64,000 bases of DNA from Nitrosomonas sp. (GTDB lineage: Bacteria; Pseudomonadota; Gammaproteobacteria; Burkholderiales; Nitrosomonadaceae). Positions 50,418 through 60,207 of this stretch are shown here, piece after piece. The stretch is taken from assembly GCA_019635215.1 (NCBI GenBank), contig JAHBZZ010000001.1, positions 186,001-250,000 of the forward strand. Direction: 5' to 3'. Numbering within the stretch: the stretch's first letter is position 1; each line of letters begins with the position of its first letter. The position numbers and the translations under genes are program-made. The notes beneath the pieces were generated by a model, which was not told where the DNA came from, searched no databases, and saw only the letters and a list, made by a program, of their open reading frames with translations.

Positions 50418-53012
50418 ATGAAAAGCAGCGAAATCAGACAAAAGTTTCTCGAATTTTTCGAATCCCATGGCCACACCCGCGTTCCATCCAGTCCGCTGGT
50501 GCCGAGAAACGATCCGACGCTGTTGTTTACCAACGCAGGCATGGTGCAGTTCAAGGATGTTTTTCTGGGTCAGGATCAGCGCAGCTATGTGCGCGCAGCC
50601 AGTTCGCAGCGCTGCGTGCGCGCCGGCGGCAAGCACAACGATCTGGAAAATGTCGGCTATACGGCGCGGCATCATACGTTCTTTGAAATGCTCGGCAATT
50701 TCAGTTTCGGCGATTACTTCAAGCGCAACGCCATCCAGTTTGCCTGGGAATTTCTGACCGTCACGCTGAATATTTCACAGGAAAGACTGTGGATCACCGT
50801 CTACGCCGAAGACGACGAAGCTGCGGATATCTGGCTCAACGAAATCGGCGTCAATCCGGCACGCTTTGTCCGTATCGATACCACGGACAATTTCTGGCAA
50901 ATGGGTGATACCGGCCCGTGCGGACCGTGTTCCGAAATTTTTTACGATCATGGCCCCGATGTCGCCGGCGGGCCACCCGGCTCCGCTGATGCGGATGGCG
51001 ACCGCTACATCGAAATCTGGAATCTGGTGTTCATGCAGTATAACCGTGACAGCAACGGCGAACTGCACCCGCTGCCCAGACCATCGGTTGATACCGGCAT
51101 GGGATTGGAACGGATTTCCGCCGTCATGCAGCAGGTGCACAGCAATTACGACATCGACTTGTTTCAGGATCTCATCAAAGCCGCCGCCCGTGAAACCGGC
51201 ACGCAAAATCTTGCGGACAACTCGCTCAAAGTCATCGCCGACCATATTCGCGCGTGCGCATTTCTGATCACCGACGGCGTTATTCCAAGCAGCGAAGGCC
51301 GCGGTTATGTATTACGGCGCATTATCCGCCGCGCTATCCGCCACGGCTACCGCCTGGGTCAAAAAGAACCGTTTTTCTACCGGCTGGCAGCCGACTTGAG
51401 CAATATCATGGGCACAGCCTACCCTGAGCTGCCCGCAGCCAAGGAGCGTGTTGCCAGCGTACTGCAACAGGAAGAAGAGCGTTTTGCCGAGACATTGGAG
51501 CACGGCATGCAGGTACTGGAAGGTGCGCTCGAAAAGAATGTCAAAGTCATTGACGGTGAAACCGCGTTCCGTCTGTACGACACCTTCGGCTTCCCGCTTG
51601 ACCTGACCGCCGATATCGCCCGCGAACGCGGCATCGGCGTTGACAATGAAGGCTTTGAAAAGGCCATGGCCAGGCAGCGCGAACAAGCGCGCGCAGCCAA
51701 CAAATTCACCATGACTGAAGGACTGGCTTACCATGGTGAGCAAACAGCCTTTCACGGCTACGACGCACTACAGCATAAGGGCAAAATTCTGGCGATCTAC
51801 AAGGCAGGCACGTCCGTCGACTTCATCGAAGCCGGTGACGAAGCCGTCATCGTGCTCGATCACACGCCCTTCTATGCGGAATCCGGTGGCCAGGCTGGTG
51901 ACAGCGGCGAACTCATGGCCGCAAACGGCACATTTGCTGTCGCCGATACGCAGAAAATCCAGGCCGATGTATTCGGTCACAAGGGTCTGCTGCAAAGCGG
52001 CCGCATGGTCGTCCAGGATCATGTTCAGGCCAGCGTCAATCCGGTCACACGCACCAGTACCGCCAATAATCATTCCGCCACACATCTGCTACACGCCGCA
52101 TTGCGCAAGGTGCTCGGCACGCATGTCGCGCAAAAAGGCTCGCTGGTCGACGCCAGTCGCCTGCGTTTCGACTTTTCGCACAATACACCGCTCACCACCG
52201 AGGAGATCCGCAAAGTCGAACAGCTGGTCAACGCGCAAATTCGCAATAACTGGCCGGTCACCGCCAATCATATGAAATACGACGAAGCTGTCAAACAGGG
52301 TGCGATGGCGTTATTCGGCGAAAAATACGCTGATGTCGTGCGCGTCATCGGCATGGGCGATTTTTCCACCGAACTGTGCGGCGGCACACATGTCGCGCAA
52401 ATCGGTCAGATCGGCTTCTTCAAAATCACCGGCGAAACCGGCATTGCCGCCGGCATACGCCGCGTTGAAGCGGTCACCGGCAGAACTGCCGTCGATTACG
52501 TGCAGCAACGCGAGGCACAACTGCAGATCATCGCACAAACGCTCAAGACCAGCTCGCAGGACATCCATCAGAAAATCGCGCAGATTATCGACAACGTCAA
52601 ACAAACCGAAAAAGAACTCGAACAACTCAAGGCCAAACTTGCCGGTTATCAAAGCACGGGACTGGCCGACCGGGCCCGGGATATCAAAGGCGTCAAGGTA
52701 CTCACCGCCAGCCTGGAAGGCGCCAGTGCAAAATCGCTGCGCGAAACACTGGATCAGTTAAAAAACAGACTCAAAACCTGCGTCATCGTGCTGGCCACCG
52801 CTGAGGCCACTAATAAAGTCACGCTGATTGCAGGTGTCAGCGACGATCTGACCCGACAGATTAAAGCCGGTGAACTGGTTAATTTTGTCGCCCGGCAGGT
52901 CGGCGGCAAAGGCGGCGGCCGACCGGATATGGCACAAGCCGGCGGTACGCAACCGGATCACCTGCCTGCGGCACTGGATAGTGTCATGGGTTGGGTGGAG
53001 GAAAAAATTTGA
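50418..53012 (+). CDS. alaS: Alanine-tRNA ligase AlaS
   Basis: AlaS charges tRNA-Ala and edits mischarged products. The 864-residue protein has the class II core ([32 protein letters not shown]), the editing-site [11 protein letters not shown] and [12 protein letters not shown] zinc motifs, and a C-terminal DHHA1-type domain ending [18 protein letters not shown]. Length fits the bacterial enzyme. It ends 24 bases before the end of the convergent RiPP transporter gene. Confidence 0.98.
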
Positions 53013-53036
53013 AGACTCACAGCCGGATATGATCGA

Positions 53037-55211
53037 CTACCCCACCATACGTACATTTGCTGCGTTATCCGGGCTCAATTCCAAGTCACCATCGGAAGCG
53101 CTTCTTGCAGTTGTATCGCTAACAACCTTTCCGGCGCTCAATCTAATCACCCAGTCGGCGCTTGCAATCGTTTCAGGACGATGCGCCACGATAATCCGCG
53201 TCAGTTTGAGTAAGCGTATCGCATGATTAACATTTTGCTCGCAATGGACATCCAGGTGACTTGTCGCCTCATCCAGAAAAAGAATAGCCGGTTGCCGGTA
53301 TAAGGCACGGGCCAGCAATAACCGCTGTTTCTGACCGCCCGATAACACTGCGCCCATATCCCCTACTAATGTATTGAATTGCATGGGCATCGCAATAATG
53401 TCCTGATGAATAGCAGCAAGGCGCGCACTTGCCTCGATACGCTCAAAATCAGGCCGCGGATCAAAAAAGCAAATATTCTCGGCGATCGAACCCGCGAAAA
53501 GCTGATCATCCTGCATCACACTCGCAACCGCCTGGCGGTACCGTGTCATTCCCACCCGGCTCAGCGGCAACCCGTCAACCTCAATACTCCCATGCGTCGG
53601 CTGTAACAAACCGAGCATGAGTTTTACCAATGTCGTCTTTCCACAGCCTGAAGGACCCACGATCGCGACTGACTCTCCTGCCTGAATACTAAAATTGATA
53701 TTCTGCAACACTGGCGGATCGTTTTCTGTGTAACGGAAAGTGAGATTCTTAACCTCGATTCGACCGGCAGGCGGCATGAAAGAAACATTCTGAAGCGCAT
53801 CCACCGGTTCAACCGGCGTAAGCGCTACATCACCGACCCGTTCTGTATGAAGCTCCAGCATACGTAATTCCAGGCCTTTCTCGATCAGGGCGGAAATCCG
53901 CTGTACAAACTGGGTTTTGTAGGCCATAAACGCAAATAGCATACCAATGGAAAAGCCGCTGCCGTTAGCCGTGTCCAGTATCAGCATGGCACCGAGCGCA
54001 ACGGTAATAATATTTTCGATCCCGAACAAAAGGCCATTCAGCCCCTGATATAAAATATTCAAACGTTGTGTCCGGATGCTTGCATTGAACTGATCGGTCA
54101 GCAGATTCTGCCAACTGGCAGCGCGGGATGCTTCATAAGCGAACAGTTTAATGCTTTGCATCCCCCTCACGGTCTCCAGGAAATGGCTGTGCTGTTTCGC
54201 GCCGCGTACGATATGATCTTCAGTCGCCAGTCGCAGTGGACGGTACAGCGCTATACGCAACACCCCATACAACATCGCCGCGGTAAGGGCGACTAAAGCC
54301 AATTGGATACTGTAAAAAAGCATCATACCGAATGTAATGATCACCATCACACCGTCGATCAAGGCTTCCAGAAAACCGGTAGTCAATGTACGCTGAATAG
54401 CGTTCAATGAATCGAAACGCGACACGATATCCCCAATATGACGCTTATTGAACCACTGCATGGGCAAACGGATCAAGTGACGAAACAGATTCGTCATCAT
54501 TTGTAAATTCAATGTCGTACTTAACACCATCAATACCCAGGCTCTCAGCGCTGTAACGCTGACCTGCACTATGGCCAGCAAGAGAAAGCCCATACCTAAA
54601 ATCGTCACCAGATCATGATCATGCGCAACCAGAGCATGATCAATCACCCACTGCATATAGAAAGGCGCCAGAATGGCAAAAATCTGCAATATCATCGCAA
54701 GCACCAGAATCTGGGTGATAGCCCTTCCCAAACCCTGCAGACGACCGATCAACGATCGCAGTTTTATCCTGCGAATATCGTGATGCGCAGCAAACGTATG
54801 CGTTGGAGTCAGTTCAAGTGCAATGCCTGTAAAATGTTTTGAAAATTCAGCCAAAGCGATATCGCGCTCCCCTATTGCAGGATCATGCACTGTCACGCGG
54901 TCACGCTGTACCTGCGTCAGAACCACGAAATGATTAAAATCCCAGTGCAGCAGGCAAGGTAATGTCAATTCAGGCAAATGGTTAAGATCAAGGCGCAAAG
55001 GACGCGCAGCCAACTTTAACCGGTCGGCAATCTGAATTAAATCAGCCAATGTCGAGCCCCGCGGTGAAACGCTATGCTGCGCCCGTAACGTAGTCAGATT
55101 GATCCGGTGGCCATGAAAGCTGGCAATCATCGCCAGGCAGGCCAGACCGCATTCAGCCGCTTCGGTTTGCAGGATAACGGGGGTTCGATGCCGTAGCGAA
55201 AAGTTAAGCAT
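53037..55211 (-). CDS. Peptidase-containing ABC exporter (C39 leader peptidase, PCAT type)
   Basis: This protein both removes a double-glycine leader and exports the peptide. The 724-residue product has an N-terminal C39 peptidase with the catalytic triad intact (C21 in AAECGLACL, H94 in DFNHFVVL, D110 in VHDPAIG) and oxyanion Q15. It continues with an ABC membrane domain with about six segments and a nucleotide-binding domain with GPSGCGKTT (519-527), LSGGQKQR (623-630) and ILFLDEATSHLD. The HlyD-like gene ends two bases upstream. With the precursor and radical SAM genes it forms one operon. An outer-membrane TolC partner is not in the window. Confidence 0.93.
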   Translation of the reverse strand: MLNFSLRHRTPVILQTEAAECGLACLAMIASFHGHRINLTTLRAQHSVSPRGSTLADLIQIADRLKLAARPLRLDLNHLPELTLPCLLHWDFNHFVVLTQVQRDRVTVHDPAIGERDIALAEFSKHFTGIALELTPTHTFAAHHDIRRIKLRSLIGRLQGLGRAITQILVLAMILQIFAILAPFYMQWVIDHALVAHDHDLVTILGMGFLLLAIVQVSVTALRAWVLMVLSTTLNLQMMTNLFRHLIRLPMQWFNKRHIGDIVSRFDSLNAIQRTLTTGFLEALIDGVMVIITFGMMLFYSIQLALVALTAAMLYGVLRIALYRPLRLATEDHIVRGAKQHSHFLETVRGMQSIKLFAYEASRAASWQNLLTDQFNASIRTQRLNILYQGLNGLLFGIENIITVALGAMLILDTANGSGFSIGMLFAFMAYKTQFVQRISALIEKGLELRMLELHTERVGDVALTPVEPVDALQNVSFMPPAGRIEVKNLTFRYTENDPPVLQNINFSIQAGESVAIVGPSGCGKTTLVKLMLGLLQPTHGSIEVDGLPLSRVGMTRYRQAVASVMQDDQLFAGSIAENICFFDPRPDFERIEASARLAAIHQDIIAMPMQFNTLVGDMGAVLSGGQKQRLLLARALYRQPAILFLDEATSHLDVHCEQNVNHAIRLLKLTRIIVAHRPETIASADWVIRLSAGKVVSDTTARSASDGDLELSPDNAANVRMVG

Positions 55212-55213
55212 GA

Positions 55214-56461
55214 TCAGATACGACCGGTAATCGATAATAAAGGATCAAAAACCCATTCGATCAGACGCCGCCGGTCAATATGAATATCCGCATCCAGCAC
55301 CATTTCCGCCTGTAATGGTATAGCCTGACCATAGGCCTGAATCTGTTGTTGAGGCAGACGAACCGTGACACGATAAACCGGTTCCTGAATCGCTACCGGC
55401 AGATTAGACGTATCCGGTTGAATCACTGCGCGGCCGATTTCAATCACTTCACCCAGATGATGCCCAAAACGCTGATAAGGAAAAGCCTGGTAACGCAGTG
55501 AAACCGATTGTGCAGGCTTAATAAATCCTGCGGAGCGCGTTGGTATCAGCAGTTGCGCCTGTAATTCCGCACCTGCTGGCAGAACGGAGAGCAGCGGCAG
55601 ATTGGAATGCACAGTTTGCCCGACTTCTGCCAGAATGGTCGTCACCGTACCGTCAGCGGACGCCGTCAGAACAATACTGCGCCGGAGATCTGTTTCCGTG
55701 AGTTGCTGTTCCAATTCTGAAATTTGCCGCTCAATAACCGCCTGGTTATTGGTCTGTTTTAAACGCGATGCGGACAATTCAATACGCGCCGCGTTCAATT
55801 CACGATTCAGACCTGAAATGCTGCGCCGGATCTGCGCCAGTTGATTACGCTGATCGATTAATTCTTCATGCCTCTGCTGCAATGCAGCTTCGGACATAAA
55901 CCGCTCCGCAACTAATTTCTGATACCGTGCGACCGTGCGCTCCGCACCGGCAACGCGCTCGGATTGCAGTGCCAATTGTGCTTCTGTCTCGCGGATTTCC
56001 GTTTCAAGCCCGCGAATGCGCCCGGCAATACTGATTCCAGTCAGTGAATCAATCTCGCTTTGCTGATTTTGTTCGAATCGCAAACTCGCTTGCCGCTGTT
56101 TTAGCTCGGCAAGCATGGTGGCTTGCGCCTCTCGTGCGTTGGCTGTCGTGCGCTCACTGGAAATCGTCAGTAAGGGATCACCTTGTTTGACAGATTGCCC
56201 TTCACGTACATGCTTTTCCTGAACCGTACCCATTTGCGGGGAATAAATCCGGATCATGCCCGTAGTCGGCGACAAATACCCCACAACATGCGCTTTACGT
56301 GTATATTCGCCCCAGAAGGCAAATCCTGTCAGCGCTGTTGTAAATATCACGGCTATCCAGATCAGCAGGCTGATCGCCGGTGATCGCGCAATCAGCACAT
56401 CGCCTTTTAGCGGATCATGCTGATAAGTGAGTGCTTCTGAGCGAAAAAGAGCGTGTGACAT
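55214..56461 (-). CDS. HlyD-family periplasmic adaptor of the peptide exporter
   Basis: It should bridge the ABC exporter to an outer-membrane channel. From the ATG at 56461 the product has 415 residues: LFRSEALTYQHDPLKGD, one membrane segment (SLLIWIAVIFTTALTGFAFWG), a split biotinyl-lipoyl-like domain (YSPQMGTVQEKHVREGQSVKQGDPLL), a long coiled coil (about 105-250) and the closing beta-barrel. Starts at 56479 (ATG) or further upstream at a TTG are possible, but LFR.EA is normally near the N-terminus in this group. It lies between the radical SAM gene (92 bases) and the exporter gene (two bases). Confidence 0.88.
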   Translation of the reverse strand: MSHALFRSEALTYQHDPLKGDVLIARSPAISLLIWIAVIFTTALTGFAFWGEYTRKAHVVGYLSPTTGMIRIYSPQMGTVQEKHVREGQSVKQGDPLLTISSERTTANAREAQATMLAELKQRQASLRFEQNQQSEIDSLTGISIAGRIRGLETEIRETEAQLALQSERVAGAERTVARYQKLVAERFMSEAALQQRHEELIDQRNQLAQIRRSISGLNRELNAARIELSASRLKQTNNQAVIERQISELEQQLTETDLRRSIVLTASADGTVTTILAEVGQTVHSNLPLLSVLPAGAELQAQLLIPTRSAGFIKPAQSVSLRYQAFPYQRFGHHLGEVIEIGRAVIQPDTSNLPVAIQEPVYRVTVRLPQQQIQAYGQAIPLQAEMVLDADIHIDRRRLIEWVFDPLLSITGRI

Positions 56462-56553
56462 AGCGTAGTTCTCAGACATGAAACTGTAGTTACTCAACGC
56501 TGAAGTACCAGAGCCATGCTAAGGCCATCTGACCGGTATCGCTGTGCAGAAAC

Positions 56554-57591
56554 TCACATCGACATAAAATGCATGGCACGATTCCGGGCAACCCTGCCCG
56601 CTTCCTCAGCGCGCTGACCAATCAAGTTATTCCAGTCAAAGAAAAAAGGTGCAGGCGCACACGCGATTTCCTCATACACATCACGGCATAACGAATAGAA
56701 CGCAGGCAAACTTCGTTTACGCCATTCCGCAACCAAGACACTGAGTGGCGCATGTTTTAAATTACCCATCGTATAGTCACGCGAAAAACCGTGTTGAACC
56801 GGGCTGACCGTGCCGTCCGCTTCGATTACCAGTGGCGCGATAAGCTCACCAAACCGTTTTCCTTCTGCTCCGGACTCATCGCCGGCAAATACCAATTCCG
56901 GCTGTTGTTTGATCACCTCGCTAAATGCAAGATCGACGTGTATCCGGATATCGCTATCGACTTCCTGCTGGGCCAGCATCCAGGCATAGGCACCTTCAGT
57001 TGCATCGGGCGAATTGCCGCGCAGCATCGTTGCCGCATTCCCCACTTCCTCCAGTGGATGAATCTGCAGCAGTTTTGCGCCCTCACCCGCGGCAAAATCA
57101 CGGACCCAGTCGAATTCATCCAGGTTATATTGCGTCAAAGTAAAAATAAATCCAAAAGGCATATCCGCCGCGCGCAATAGCGGCAAGCGTAATTTCATGG
57201 TATCAAACGCAAGTTGCGAACCCCTGATACGATTATGTGATGTCGGGATACCGTCAATACTGATGGCAAGCACATCCACCACATCACGTAGCCGTTCGAT
57301 TTTCCGCTCGGTTAATAACATGCCGTTGGTTGTAACTGCTGTCCTCATCCCCAGCCGGTGCGCATGCTCCAGCAGTTCAGTCAGCGGTTTGTAAAGCATC
57401 GGCTCGCCTCCCGAAAGGCTAACGTAGTTGAAGCCTTCATGCGCGGCATCTGAAATTGCGTCACATAACAGTTCCAGTGTCAGGAATTCTTTTTCATCCG
57501 GGGAAGAAGACGAGTAGCAATGAAGACAACGCAAATTACATTGCCGGGTTGGGTGAATCTGTAAAACACGCGATAATCCGGTTGGCCCCAT
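56554..57591 (-). CDS. Radical SAM peptide-modifying enzyme with degenerate SPASM-like C-terminus
   Basis: The 345-residue product has the radical SAM cluster motif CNLRCLHC (C18, C22, C25) and the SAM-binding SLSGGEPM (59-65) and SIDG. The C-terminus resembles a SPASM domain (VIEADGTVSPVQHG...MGNL) but lacks the cysteine expected after TVSP, and the whole region has only C302 and C311. Auxiliary iron-sulfur clusters are thus probably absent or incomplete. AGGAG seven bases before the ATG lies just after the precursor stop, so the two genes are translationally linked. Modification of the precursor core is inferred from context; the reaction is not known. Confidence 0.87.
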   Translation of the reverse strand: MGPTGLSRVLQIHPTRQCNLRCLHCYSSSSPDEKEFLTLELLCDAISDAAHEGFNYVSLSGGEPMLYKPLTELLEHAHRLGMRTAVTTNGMLLTERKIERLRDVVDVLAISIDGIPTSHNRIRGSQLAFDTMKLRLPLLRAADMPFGFIFTLTQYNLDEFDWVRDFAAGEGAKLLQIHPLEEVGNAATMLRGNSPDATEGAYAWMLAQQEVDSDIRIHVDLAFSEVIKQQPELVFAGDESGAEGKRFGELIAPLVIEADGTVSPVQHGFSRDYTMGNLKHAPLSVLVAEWRKRSLPAFYSLCRDVYEEIACAPAPFFFDWNNLIGQRAEEAGRVARNRAMHFMSM

Positions 57592-57605
57592 TGCTAAACT
57601 CCTTA

Positions 57606-57824
57606 TCAGAATTGCTGTTGATTAATATTTAATTCATTCATTTGCAACTGCTGTGAATTAAATACATAGCGATCGACAGGAATACCACGGATTAACCAAG
57701 TAGGAATAATAGTTCCACCGAATGAAGCACCACCGGCAACTTGTGCAATCTCTTCCGGCGTCAAACTGGCCATGGTTTGGCACTTCACTTTCAGTTTTTC
57801 TGAGCCACTCATTTCTTGTGACAT
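57606..57824 (-). CDS. RiPP precursor peptide with double-glycine leader
   Basis: The 72-residue peptide starts at the ATG at 57824, which has GAGGAG eight bases upstream; a longer frame to 57854 would begin before that site. Residues 21-32, LTPEEIAQVAGG, match the C39 leader rule L(-12), E(-8), hydrophobic (-7), V(-4), G(-2), G(-1). The predicted core, residues 33-72, has no cysteine, one Trp (W43), Tyr53, Arg46 and Arg52, and a Gln/Asn-rich end. A second GG at 36-37 fits the rule poorly. It is the first gene of the precursor-rSAM-HlyD-exporter operon. No known peptide class was recognised in the core. Confidence 0.85.
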   Translation of the reverse strand: MSQEMSGSEKLKVKCQTMASLTPEEIAQVAGGASFGGTIIPTWLIRGIPVDRYVFNSQQLQMNELNINQQQF

Positions 57825-58439
57825 GATTGTTCTCCTCAAAAAAGTTGAATACATTTCAATGATTGATGATTAGCCGGCAGACTCGCCAATAAAGTAAGAC
57901 CAGCTGGCGAAATCAGTAACAGTACAAATGAATGACTGCTTAGCTTTTCACTCAACCAAGGTTCAAGATAGTCTGAATTGAAAAAATGCACAGTGGGAAA
58001 AATCACACCCGCAGTAGTGTTTCTATGCCAGAAACCAGAATTGACGATAGCTGAAGCGGCCAGAAGTTTTGAAATTAATGCCAATATGCTTGGACGATGG
58101 TCTTCATCGTGAGAGAGACGAAGTGAAATATTCGTTCATCACCCCAAAGAAACCCCATCCGGTTGGTTTAATGTGCCGACTATTGGCCGTTATCCACAGA
58201 AGCTATAGAATACATCCGCATGAAAAACAATTTATCCTGTTATACAGATACATTCTCACACCCGCCTTACGTTGCGTGTATGCCCAATCCATGGAAATTC
58301 AGTCCGGCATGCATACCGTCATTCATAGCACACAGGTACAGCTCATGGAAATAGAAGACACCGTCCCGGATTGCAGGGCATATCAGGCATGTGACATGCA
58401 TTGCCATCACCACTACACCGGAAAACCCAGCCTGCAGAT
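57825..58439. other. 615-base divergent region between RiPP operon and tpm
   Basis: Apart from the doubtful minus-strand ORF above, a plus-strand frame of 124 codons (58069-58443, TTG or ATG at 58078) runs into the tpm start with an ATGA overlap. Its composition (many Cys, His, Tyr) and lack of a ribosome binding site make it unconvincing. I could not define promoters with confidence, though both the RiPP operon and tpm must be controlled from here. Confidence 0.35.
57836..58084 (-). CDS. Doubtful short ORF directly upstream of the RiPP precursor
   Basis: An 82-codon frame without ATG (TTG at 58084; open back to a TGA near 58138). Its TGA stop lies inside the GAGGAG ribosome binding site of the precursor gene, an arrangement typical of coupled genes. 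The product has a hydrophobic stretch near SFVLLLISPAGLTLLASL. No ribosome binding site or family match was found, so it may be chance or a decayed gene. The RiPP promoter should lie within 57840-58140. Confidence 0.25.
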   Translation of the reverse strand: MALISKLLAASAIVNSGFWHRNTTAGVIFPTVHFFNSDYLEPWLSEKLSSHSFVLLLISPAGLTLLASLPANHQSLKCIQLF

Positions 58440-59099
58440 ATGACCAAAGAATACTGGCTTGACCGTTGGAAACGCTGCGAAATCGGGTTTCACCAGGATC
58501 AATTCAACCCGTATCTCATGAAATACTGGTCACGGCTGCAAATTCCGGATAACAGTAGCGTTTTTGTTCCGCTATGCGGAAAATCCCGGGATATGATCTG
58601 GCTGCAAAACCGCGGTCATTCCGTTCTCGGCGTGGAATTCAGCAGATTGGCTGTCGCCGCTTTTTTCCAGGAAAATAGTGTCACGCCGTCCCAACAGACC
58701 AGCCAGCGGTTTGAGCATTATGCCAGCGGCGGAATAGAAATCCTGCTGGGTGATTTTTTTGATTTGCATAAAACACATCTGGAGAACGTCCGTGCCGTTT
58801 ATGATCGCGCATCACTGGTGGCGCTCCCGCCGGACACACGCAAACGGTATGCCGTGCACATGATGCATATCCTCCCGCCCGCAACACCGATACTGCTGGT
58901 CGGTTTCGATTATCCTCAGTCTGAGATGCAGGGCCCGCCCTACGCCGTCTCCATGGAAGAAATCGACATACTGTACCGGGATCGTGCTGAAATCAACCTG
59001 ATCGGACAGATCAATGTACTGGAAGAAAATCCGCGCTTCAAACAACTTGGCTTAAGCCGGCTGCAGGAAAATATTGTTTTGTTAACCACACGGCTCTGA
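58440..59099 (+). CDS. tpm: Thiopurine S-methyltransferase family protein Tpm
   Basis: These SAM-dependent enzymes methylate thiopurines and, in bacteria, tellurite or selenite. The 219-residue product starts MTKEYWLDRWKRCEIGFHQ, the typical TPMT N-terminus, and has FVPLCGKSRDM (42-52) for SAM binding, VLGVEFSRLAV, and VRAVYDRASLVALPP. The frame is open 13 codons upstream, but this start gives the family length. The natural substrate here is unknown. It is divergent from the RiPP operon, probably by chance. Confidence 0.93.
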   Translation: MTKEYWLDRWKRCEIGFHQDQFNPYLMKYWSRLQIPDNSSVFVPLCGKSRDMIWLQNRGHSVLGVEFSRLAVAAFFQENSVTPSQQTSQRFEHYASGGIEILLGDFFDLHKTHLENVRAVYDRASLVALPPDTRKRYAVHMMHILPPATPILLVGFDYPQSEMQGPPYAVSMEEIDILYRDRAEINLIGQINVLEENPRFKQLGLSRLQENIVLLTTRL

Positions 59100-59497: not shown

Positions 59498-59646
59498 GCG
59501 TTCTCTAATACGCAAATTTAATGGAAGAAGATTGATCAAGATGCTATTTCTGGATGAATGATATCTGCGCATCATCGCATGATTCATCGATTCCAAATCA
59601 AATGCTATAAAATAATTTTTTGATTAATAATTCTGGAGATGAGTGT

Positions 59647-60207
59647 ATGAAAGCAGTCCGTAGAGATTCTTACAGCAATTTGCTTATTCATTCGAAATTT
59701 CCTGCAATGCTTTTAAGTGTGTCATTGTCCTTTATTCAGCCTGTTCAGGCCGCAAGCGGCGATGCAAGCAACAAAAATCCACTGGCGTTTGGTGCGGAAC
59801 AGCGTTTGATCGATTTCAGCCGGCTTGATTGGGAGTCCATGAAATCGGACAATATTCCACCCGGCGCAGAAATAGCGATTCTACACGGCAATTTTGAAAC
59901 AGGACCGGCCGAAGCTGTCGTGCGTTTGCCCGCTCATTATACTTTTCCTGCGCACAGTCATCCCATCACAGAAACTTATTTATGGATTCAAGGTGATTTC
60001 AGTTATGTCAGTGCGGATGGCAAAACAGTGGATATGAAAGCACCTACTTTTATCAGCTTACCTGAAAATGTGCCGCATGCATTGATCTGCAAGGATCAGC
60101 CCTGCATATTCTATCTTCGCTATGAGAAACCGTTCGAAGTGAAATTCCACCCCATGCCAAAAATGGAGAAAATCCCATTGCCGGAAATTCGCACTTACAA
60201 TCATTAA
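59647..60207 (+). CDS. Exported cupin-domain protein
   Basis: From the ATG at 59647 (GGAG nine bases upstream) the product is 186 residues with a signal peptide ending near PVQAASG, so it should be periplasmic. The cupin core has the metal-ligand pattern PAHYTFPAHSHPITETYLWIQG followed by ISLPENVPHALIC, like ChrR-type cupins. Catalytic or sensory function is unknown. A zinc alcohol dehydrogenase gene follows 60 bases later on the same strand and may be co-expressed. Confidence 0.83.
   Translation: MKAVRRDSYSNLLIHSKFPAMLLSVSLSFIQPVQAASGDASNKNPLAFGAEQRLIDFSRLDWESMKSDNIPPGAEIAILHGNFETGPAEAVVRLPAHYTFPAHSHPITETYLWIQGDFSYVSADGKTVDMKAPTFISLPENVPHALICKDQPCIFYLRYEKPFEVKFHPMPKMEKIPLPEIRTYNH

Follow-up and report, generated by a model that had tools for sequence, protein, structure and literature searches.

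The 64,000-nucleotide window of the Nitrosomonas sp. contig JAHBZZ010000001.1 contains a compact four-gene operon that, with slightly better than even confidence, specifies an exported ribosomal peptide on which a radical S-adenosylmethionine (SAM) enzyme acts at a conserved Gly-Ile site, epimerization being the likeliest change. The peptide is probably chemically modified. Precursor, radical SAM enzyme, HlyD adaptor, and C39-ABC exporter were all recovered as open reading frames (ORFs) on the minus strand, at the positions at which a sequence-only reading had placed them on a single strand that it left unnamed.

The precursor gene (57606..57824, minus strand as for all features below) encodes 72 amino acids. 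Its TGA stop codon runs straight into TAAGGAG (57599..57605), the ribosome-binding site of the radical SAM gene, which is followed by 7 bases and the ATG at 57591. The radical SAM enzyme (56554..57591) is 345 amino acids long, carries a CxxxCxxC motif at residues 18/22/25, and matches PF04055 with 86.7 bits. The HlyD-type adaptor (55214..56461; PF13437, 65.3 bits) was listed from a TTG at 56497; the alignments of five of its six relatives begin only at residue 13 and that of the sixth at residue 17, which makes the ATG at 56461 the more probable start codon. Its match to TIGR01843 is clear at 148.1 bits, albeit under the NCBIfam cut-off of 208.65. Two bases separate the stop codon of the adaptor from the ATG of the exporter (53037..55211), whose 724 residues contain a Peptidase_C39 domain (PF03412, 128.3 bits against a cut-off of 22) as well as ABC_membrane (126.3 bits) and ABC_tran (117.1 bits) domains. 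Q15 and C21 of the C39 motif can be seen in its sequence, as can an H94/D110-type pair. The abutting precursor stop and ribosome-binding site and the two-base gap had both been described in the sequence-only reading. A promoter scan returned one site against a shuffle average of 7.4, and no promoter is claimed; the GC content reveals no clear island.

Within the precursor, residues 1–32 (57729..57824) form the predicted leader and residues 33–72 (57609..57728) the predicted core. The junction reads ...LTPEEIAQVAGG followed by ASFGG..., and cleavage is predicted after Gly-Gly because the operon contains a C39 exporter. Seven Nitrosomonas-type sequences share the leader stretch LTPEEIxQxAGG, and W43, I45–P49, D51, and Y53 of the core are invariant among them, giving a motif W-x-I-R-G-I-P-x-D-x-Y that in the window takes the form W43-L-I-R-G-I-P-V-D-R-Y53 (57666..57698). 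The ratio of nonsynonymous to synonymous substitution rates (dN/dS) of the precursor is 0.14 between the window and its relative at locus L078 (dN 0.219; dS 1.60, which is near saturation) and 0 to 0.29 among loci L079–L082. The sole cysteine of the precursor is residue 15, within the leader; the core therefore offers no cysteine donor of the kind used in sactipeptides and ranthipeptides, and a thioether product was rejected on this ground. The operon shares with double-glycine, C39-exported bacteriocins and ribosomally synthesized and post-translationally modified peptides (RiPPs) a small ORF with a Gly-Gly leader next to a maturase gene, together with the C39-ABC exporter and the HlyD adaptor in one operon. 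It differs from them in that both core and maturase stay under the NCBIfam cut-offs.

The arrangement is conserved. The radical SAM gene is present in seven of 125 genomes of the family (the window genome included), all of one genus, and the order precursor–radical SAM–HlyD–exporter is kept in all seven. At the six congeneric loci L078–L083 the radical SAM enzyme is 72–76% and the exporter 76–81% identical to those of the window. All six congeneric relatives, as well as genomes G139 and G818, have a homologous precursor directly upstream of the radical SAM gene (loci L078–L083, L087, and L101), which makes the four-gene set more than a chance assembly. The check proposed by the sequence-only reading, co-occurrence of the four genes in relatives, hence came out in its favor: they travel as a unit, and the precursor is conserved beside the enzyme. 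G818, found among 369 genomes of the same class, has the whole set in the same order (radical SAM 53%, HlyD 45%, and exporter 60% identity, plus a precursor). Among 399 genomes of the order, G139 has a radical SAM enzyme of 62% identity with an adjoining precursor that carries the motif and G442, of the same class as the window, one of 39% identity. This adjacency persists without the exporter in G139, G442, and the wider set described below, with genes that overlap or nearly touch in several cases, and it thereby speaks against a peptide that is exported essentially unmodified while the radical SAM enzyme acts elsewhere. An unmodified bacteriocin would need no more than the leader and the exporter, and modification was not observed; such an export is nevertheless considered highly improbable.

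More distant relatives of the enzyme extend the motif. They were found in G1319 and G1324 (with G442, three of 145 genomes of the family of G442), and further searches added G1435, G1216, and G1361 (three of 100 genomes) and G1216, G1217, G1435, G1527, G1560, and G1670 (six of 292); in a sample of the phylum, the window genome, G1216, and G1217 carried it (three of 398). G1216, G1435, G1527, G1560, and G1670 belong to the phylum of the window but lie outside its class. In many genomes only a fraction of the first-look candidates (up to 5, 7, or 14, by search) was scored, and order, class, and phylum were covered by samples, so that more remote members could have gone unnoticed. Directly upstream of the more distant radical SAM genes lie ORFs of ~93–137 amino acids, the ends of which read, for example, IFPRGIVEPDRYRM, LFPYGILVDDLFRV, IFPWGIKDPDMLRV, IMIDGITDPERLRV, and MIDGIPSDFF. 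A divergent motif accompanies the enzyme in G442, G1216, G1217, G1319, G1324, G1435, G1527, G1560, and G1670, and W-x-I-R-G-I-P-x-D-x-Y is a local version of a broader motif that can be written approximately as hydrophobic-[PI]-x-G-I-x-x-[DP]. Across 14 aligned precursors, Gly47 is the only motif position without any variation (14 of 14), and Ile48 is kept in 13. Two Gly-Ile copies occur at L114, L119, and L120, and at L104 and L121 the second copy is a Tyr-Gly without Ile. No relatives of the window exporter lie near the distant loci examined.

The recurrence of the motif was assessed by a leave-one-clade-out test with training sites chosen by eye. Its set excluded L080–L083 and L105, which nearly duplicate L079 and L104, respectively, as well as the sister pair L106/L116; alignment A5 omits L080 and L082. 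The motif was picked out in all 13 precursors, and for none of them did more than 22 of 2000 shuffles score as high; 12 picks fell on the aligned site and that of L114 on its other copy. None of 62 control ORFs from upstream of unrelated radical SAM genes (41 loci) reached the family minimum of 8.38, the control maximum being 7.01. The sequence-only reading had held that the core matches no class. This stands insofar as the precursor stays under every family cut-off in Pfam and NCBIfam; the single NCBIfam hit, to a class I lanthipeptide leader domain, has an E value of 0.51 and 10.6 bits, with a cut-off of 22. It needs qualifying in that short ORFs next to related radical SAM genes contain the Gly-Ile motif as well.

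The enzyme itself stays under every NCBIfam cut-off. Its highest-scoring models, which cover residues ~11–200, are of the NirJ, AhbC, AhbD, and TIGR04347 types (TIGR04347: 98.4 bits, cut-off 525), all far under their cut-offs; these families are heme-precursor enzymes or unassigned and stand in other gene contexts. The structure model shows a twitch-type fold with a predicted local distance difference test score (pLDDT) of 94.3 (a first model from seven rows was poor, with a pLDDT of 55.9, and was not used), and the nearest solved folds are the RiPP enzymes SkfB and SuiB. Past residue 200 the only cysteines are 302 and 311. The auxiliary-cluster columns 247, 264+, 309, and 311+/319+, which are filled in the SPASM/twitch-type rows of alignment A8, are empty in the window enzyme. 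By its cysteine map it is hence predicted to hold only the radical SAM cluster, as do PoyD-type enzymes, and not the second [4Fe-4S] cluster of EpeE-type enzymes. SkfB, the sporulation killing factor sactisynthase (PDB 6efn), has an N-terminal RiPP recognition element (RRE) and a twitch cluster on Cys351, Cys385, and Cys387, according to PMC6231123. The window enzyme, in contrast, begins near the radical SAM core and lacks those ligands, and its substrate core contains no cysteine.

Since only one [4Fe-4S] motif and none of the usual auxiliary-cluster cysteines are present in alignment and model, a redox-neutral change is favored over oxidative cross-linking dependent on an auxiliary electron acceptor. 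The following route is proposed. The precursor would be translated with a 32-residue double-glycine leader, and the radical SAM enzyme would act on the core at the x-Gly-Ile-x site, for which the conservation of that site argues, by a single-cluster, redox-neutral reaction. The C39 domain of the exporter would then cleave after Gly-Gly and the ABC/HlyD pair would move the core across the inner membrane, as the domain content suggests. As the likeliest single chemistry, epimerization of Ile48 or a neighbor may be put forward tentatively, with Cys302—present in ten of ten close enzymes in alignment A4—as a candidate hydrogen donor. The resulting linear peptide would contain D-residues and might be directed against competitors or serve as a signal. 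Proteusin epimerases offer a parallel: PMC8326336 describes them as containing the radical SAM cluster only and a single strictly conserved, critical cysteine.

An oxidative cross-link would instead join Trp43 or Tyr53 to a carbon of, for example, Ile45 or Ile48, as a cyclophane or as an Ile-Trp-type ring known from triceptides, darobactin, and dynobactin. Neither aromatic residue varies among the seven Nitrosomonas-type cores, the carbon–carbon cyclase SuiB is among the nearest folds, and the title of one reference names an Ile-Trp cross-link. G818 (SVFPRGIPWP) and the wider set, however, do not retain Trp43. The enzyme furthermore lacks auxiliary-cluster cysteines, and the SPASM enzymes covered by the review PMC8326336 are reported to require such clusters for their modification. 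It reaches only 52.3 bits with the dynobactin maturase model NF041298 (cut-off 450), and darobactin's own model is not among the 25 matches listed. The likeness to darobactin drawn by the sequence-only reading is accordingly not supported, and a darobactin-like or triceptide assignment was set back by the missing SPASM/twitch auxiliary-cluster cysteines and by the loss of Trp43 in G818. A cross-link is thus judged unlikely.

Backbone splicing at the residue preceding Gly, as performed by PlpX-type spliceases, which cut tyramine out of their target motif, appears less probable still. PlpX substrates share a Gly after a variable residue with the peptides described here; the splicease motif is Xaa-Tyr-Gly (PMC11002830), and P-Y-G, A-Y-G, or K-Y-G occupies one site or both in L119, L120, L121, and L104, as P-Y-G does in L114. 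The window, in contrast, reads Ile-Arg-Gly, and other members have Asp, Gln, or Trp before Gly. In PMC11002830 and PMC9415263, on which the comparison with spliceases draws, PlpX contains a SPASM domain and works with an RRE partner, PlpY. The window enzyme lacks SPASM cysteines, and no PlpY-like partner was noticed among the window ORFs, for which no RRE model was run. Its match to TIGR04103, a splicease-type model, amounts to 58.9 bits against a cut-off of 725.

Another single-cluster change at Gly-Ile is rather doubtful, if better placed than cross-linking or splicing. It could consist of a C-alpha or side-chain oxidation, a desaturation, a cyclopropane as in the TVG family, or a cleavage at Gly. 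The Gly invariant in all 14 precursors would fit such a reaction, and TvgB makes cyclopropylglycine from Val in a repeated TVGG, as stated in PMC9062424. The same source, however, places TvgB in the SPASM set, and direct evidence for such a change was not found here. At L119, L120, L121, and L104, the first motif copy in the upstream ORF contains two cysteines (CPYGIC, CAYGYC, CKYGTC); these precursors could hence bear a different or additional modification.

Several findings weigh against the proposed route. Cys302 is missing from all seven more distant Gly-Ile enzymes (L115, L104, L113, L114, L119, L120, and L121), and a shared Cys-donor mechanism therefore fails for the wider set. Of the known epimerases, EpeE has two clusters, which the cysteine map of the window enzyme does not suggest, and PoyD a C-terminal RRE (PMC8326336). 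No RRE was identified in or beside the window enzyme, for which no RRE model was run. A nitrile-hydratase-like or Nif11 leader, as in PoyD-type systems, is absent, as the precursor matched nothing in Pfam at E ≤ 1. An earlier, narrower motif test trained on nine close cores missed L088 (933 of 5000 shuffles as high) and L104 (1276 of 5000); with this test, L106 obtained a good but chance-like score (12 of 5000) at a place not counted as the motif, and L116 was matched by 4190 of 5000. No relative of HlyD or exporter lies within the 16 kb of G139, and the exporter of L082 (7456-9592) is spread over two reading frames, which reflects either gene decay or a sequencing error.

Taken across genomes, the enzyme and motif would form part of a wider proteobacterial set, to which the Nitrosomonas/G818 branch would add the double-glycine leader and exporter. 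A little less than an even chance is given to the idea that the motif marks the site modified in a RiPP class not yet described. The maturases of this class would have lost their auxiliary clusters, and it would span at least two classes of one phylum, mostly as precursor–enzyme pairs without such an exporter nearby and sometimes with two motif copies, joined to the double-glycine leader and C39 exporter in Nitrosomonas and G818. In a literature search with subscription journals largely outside its coverage, no paper was recognized as describing this peptide family; the system is therefore regarded as a form of radical SAM RiPP and not as a proven new class. The search also found no RiPP paper for ammonia-oxidizing bacteria. 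If the account holds, a family of peptides with a sharply defined target motif would be added to these bacteria, and the system provides a clean test of how a twitch-type radical SAM peptide enzyme acts after losing its auxiliary cluster. Positions worth mutating can be read from the diversity of the precursors, several of which contain two copies of the motif.

The operon sits at a synteny break (window 53010–53040, right after alaS), which is consistent with its acquisition at this site. In the close relatives G070, G074, and G009, similarity to the window spans alaS and ends at ~53010, where the operon starts, apart from one further 47-base match elsewhere. The operon does not lie within ~1.5 kb of 29 other alaS loci, one of which has an unrelated ABC match of 27%. 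Nine other window genes were queried around the operons of L078–L083 without a match, barring one of 30 residues to a small ORF of L083 (E 0.007). The precursor has no match in 72,556 plasmid records, and the radical SAM enzyme matches only seven distant ones, all under 60% identity. As candidates for a second precursor, the other weak profile matches in the window genome, G000:C8 (E 0.05) and G000:C19 (E 0.73), were rejected; the place read (L127) offers no RiPP context.

The neighborhood of the operon includes a thiopurine S-methyltransferase-type gene (window 58401–59099; 269.4 bits, cut-off 223.2) and, at window 59620–60207, a gene of cupin type, neither with an evident link to the peptide. 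A sister radical SAM subfamily with precursor-like ORFs was encountered at L106 (7542-9065; plasmid pCBMA213_1 of Mycolicibacterium sp. CBMA 213) and L116 (7008-8431; G1361). Across two phyla, the ORFs of this pair are 54% identical over 100 amino acids and the radical SAM enzymes 53% over 340. The enzymes contain extra cysteines at 232, 237, 243, and 302 (window numbering), and the set features a FEGGDFGTV...GPRP stretch; it possibly represents a separate peptide family.

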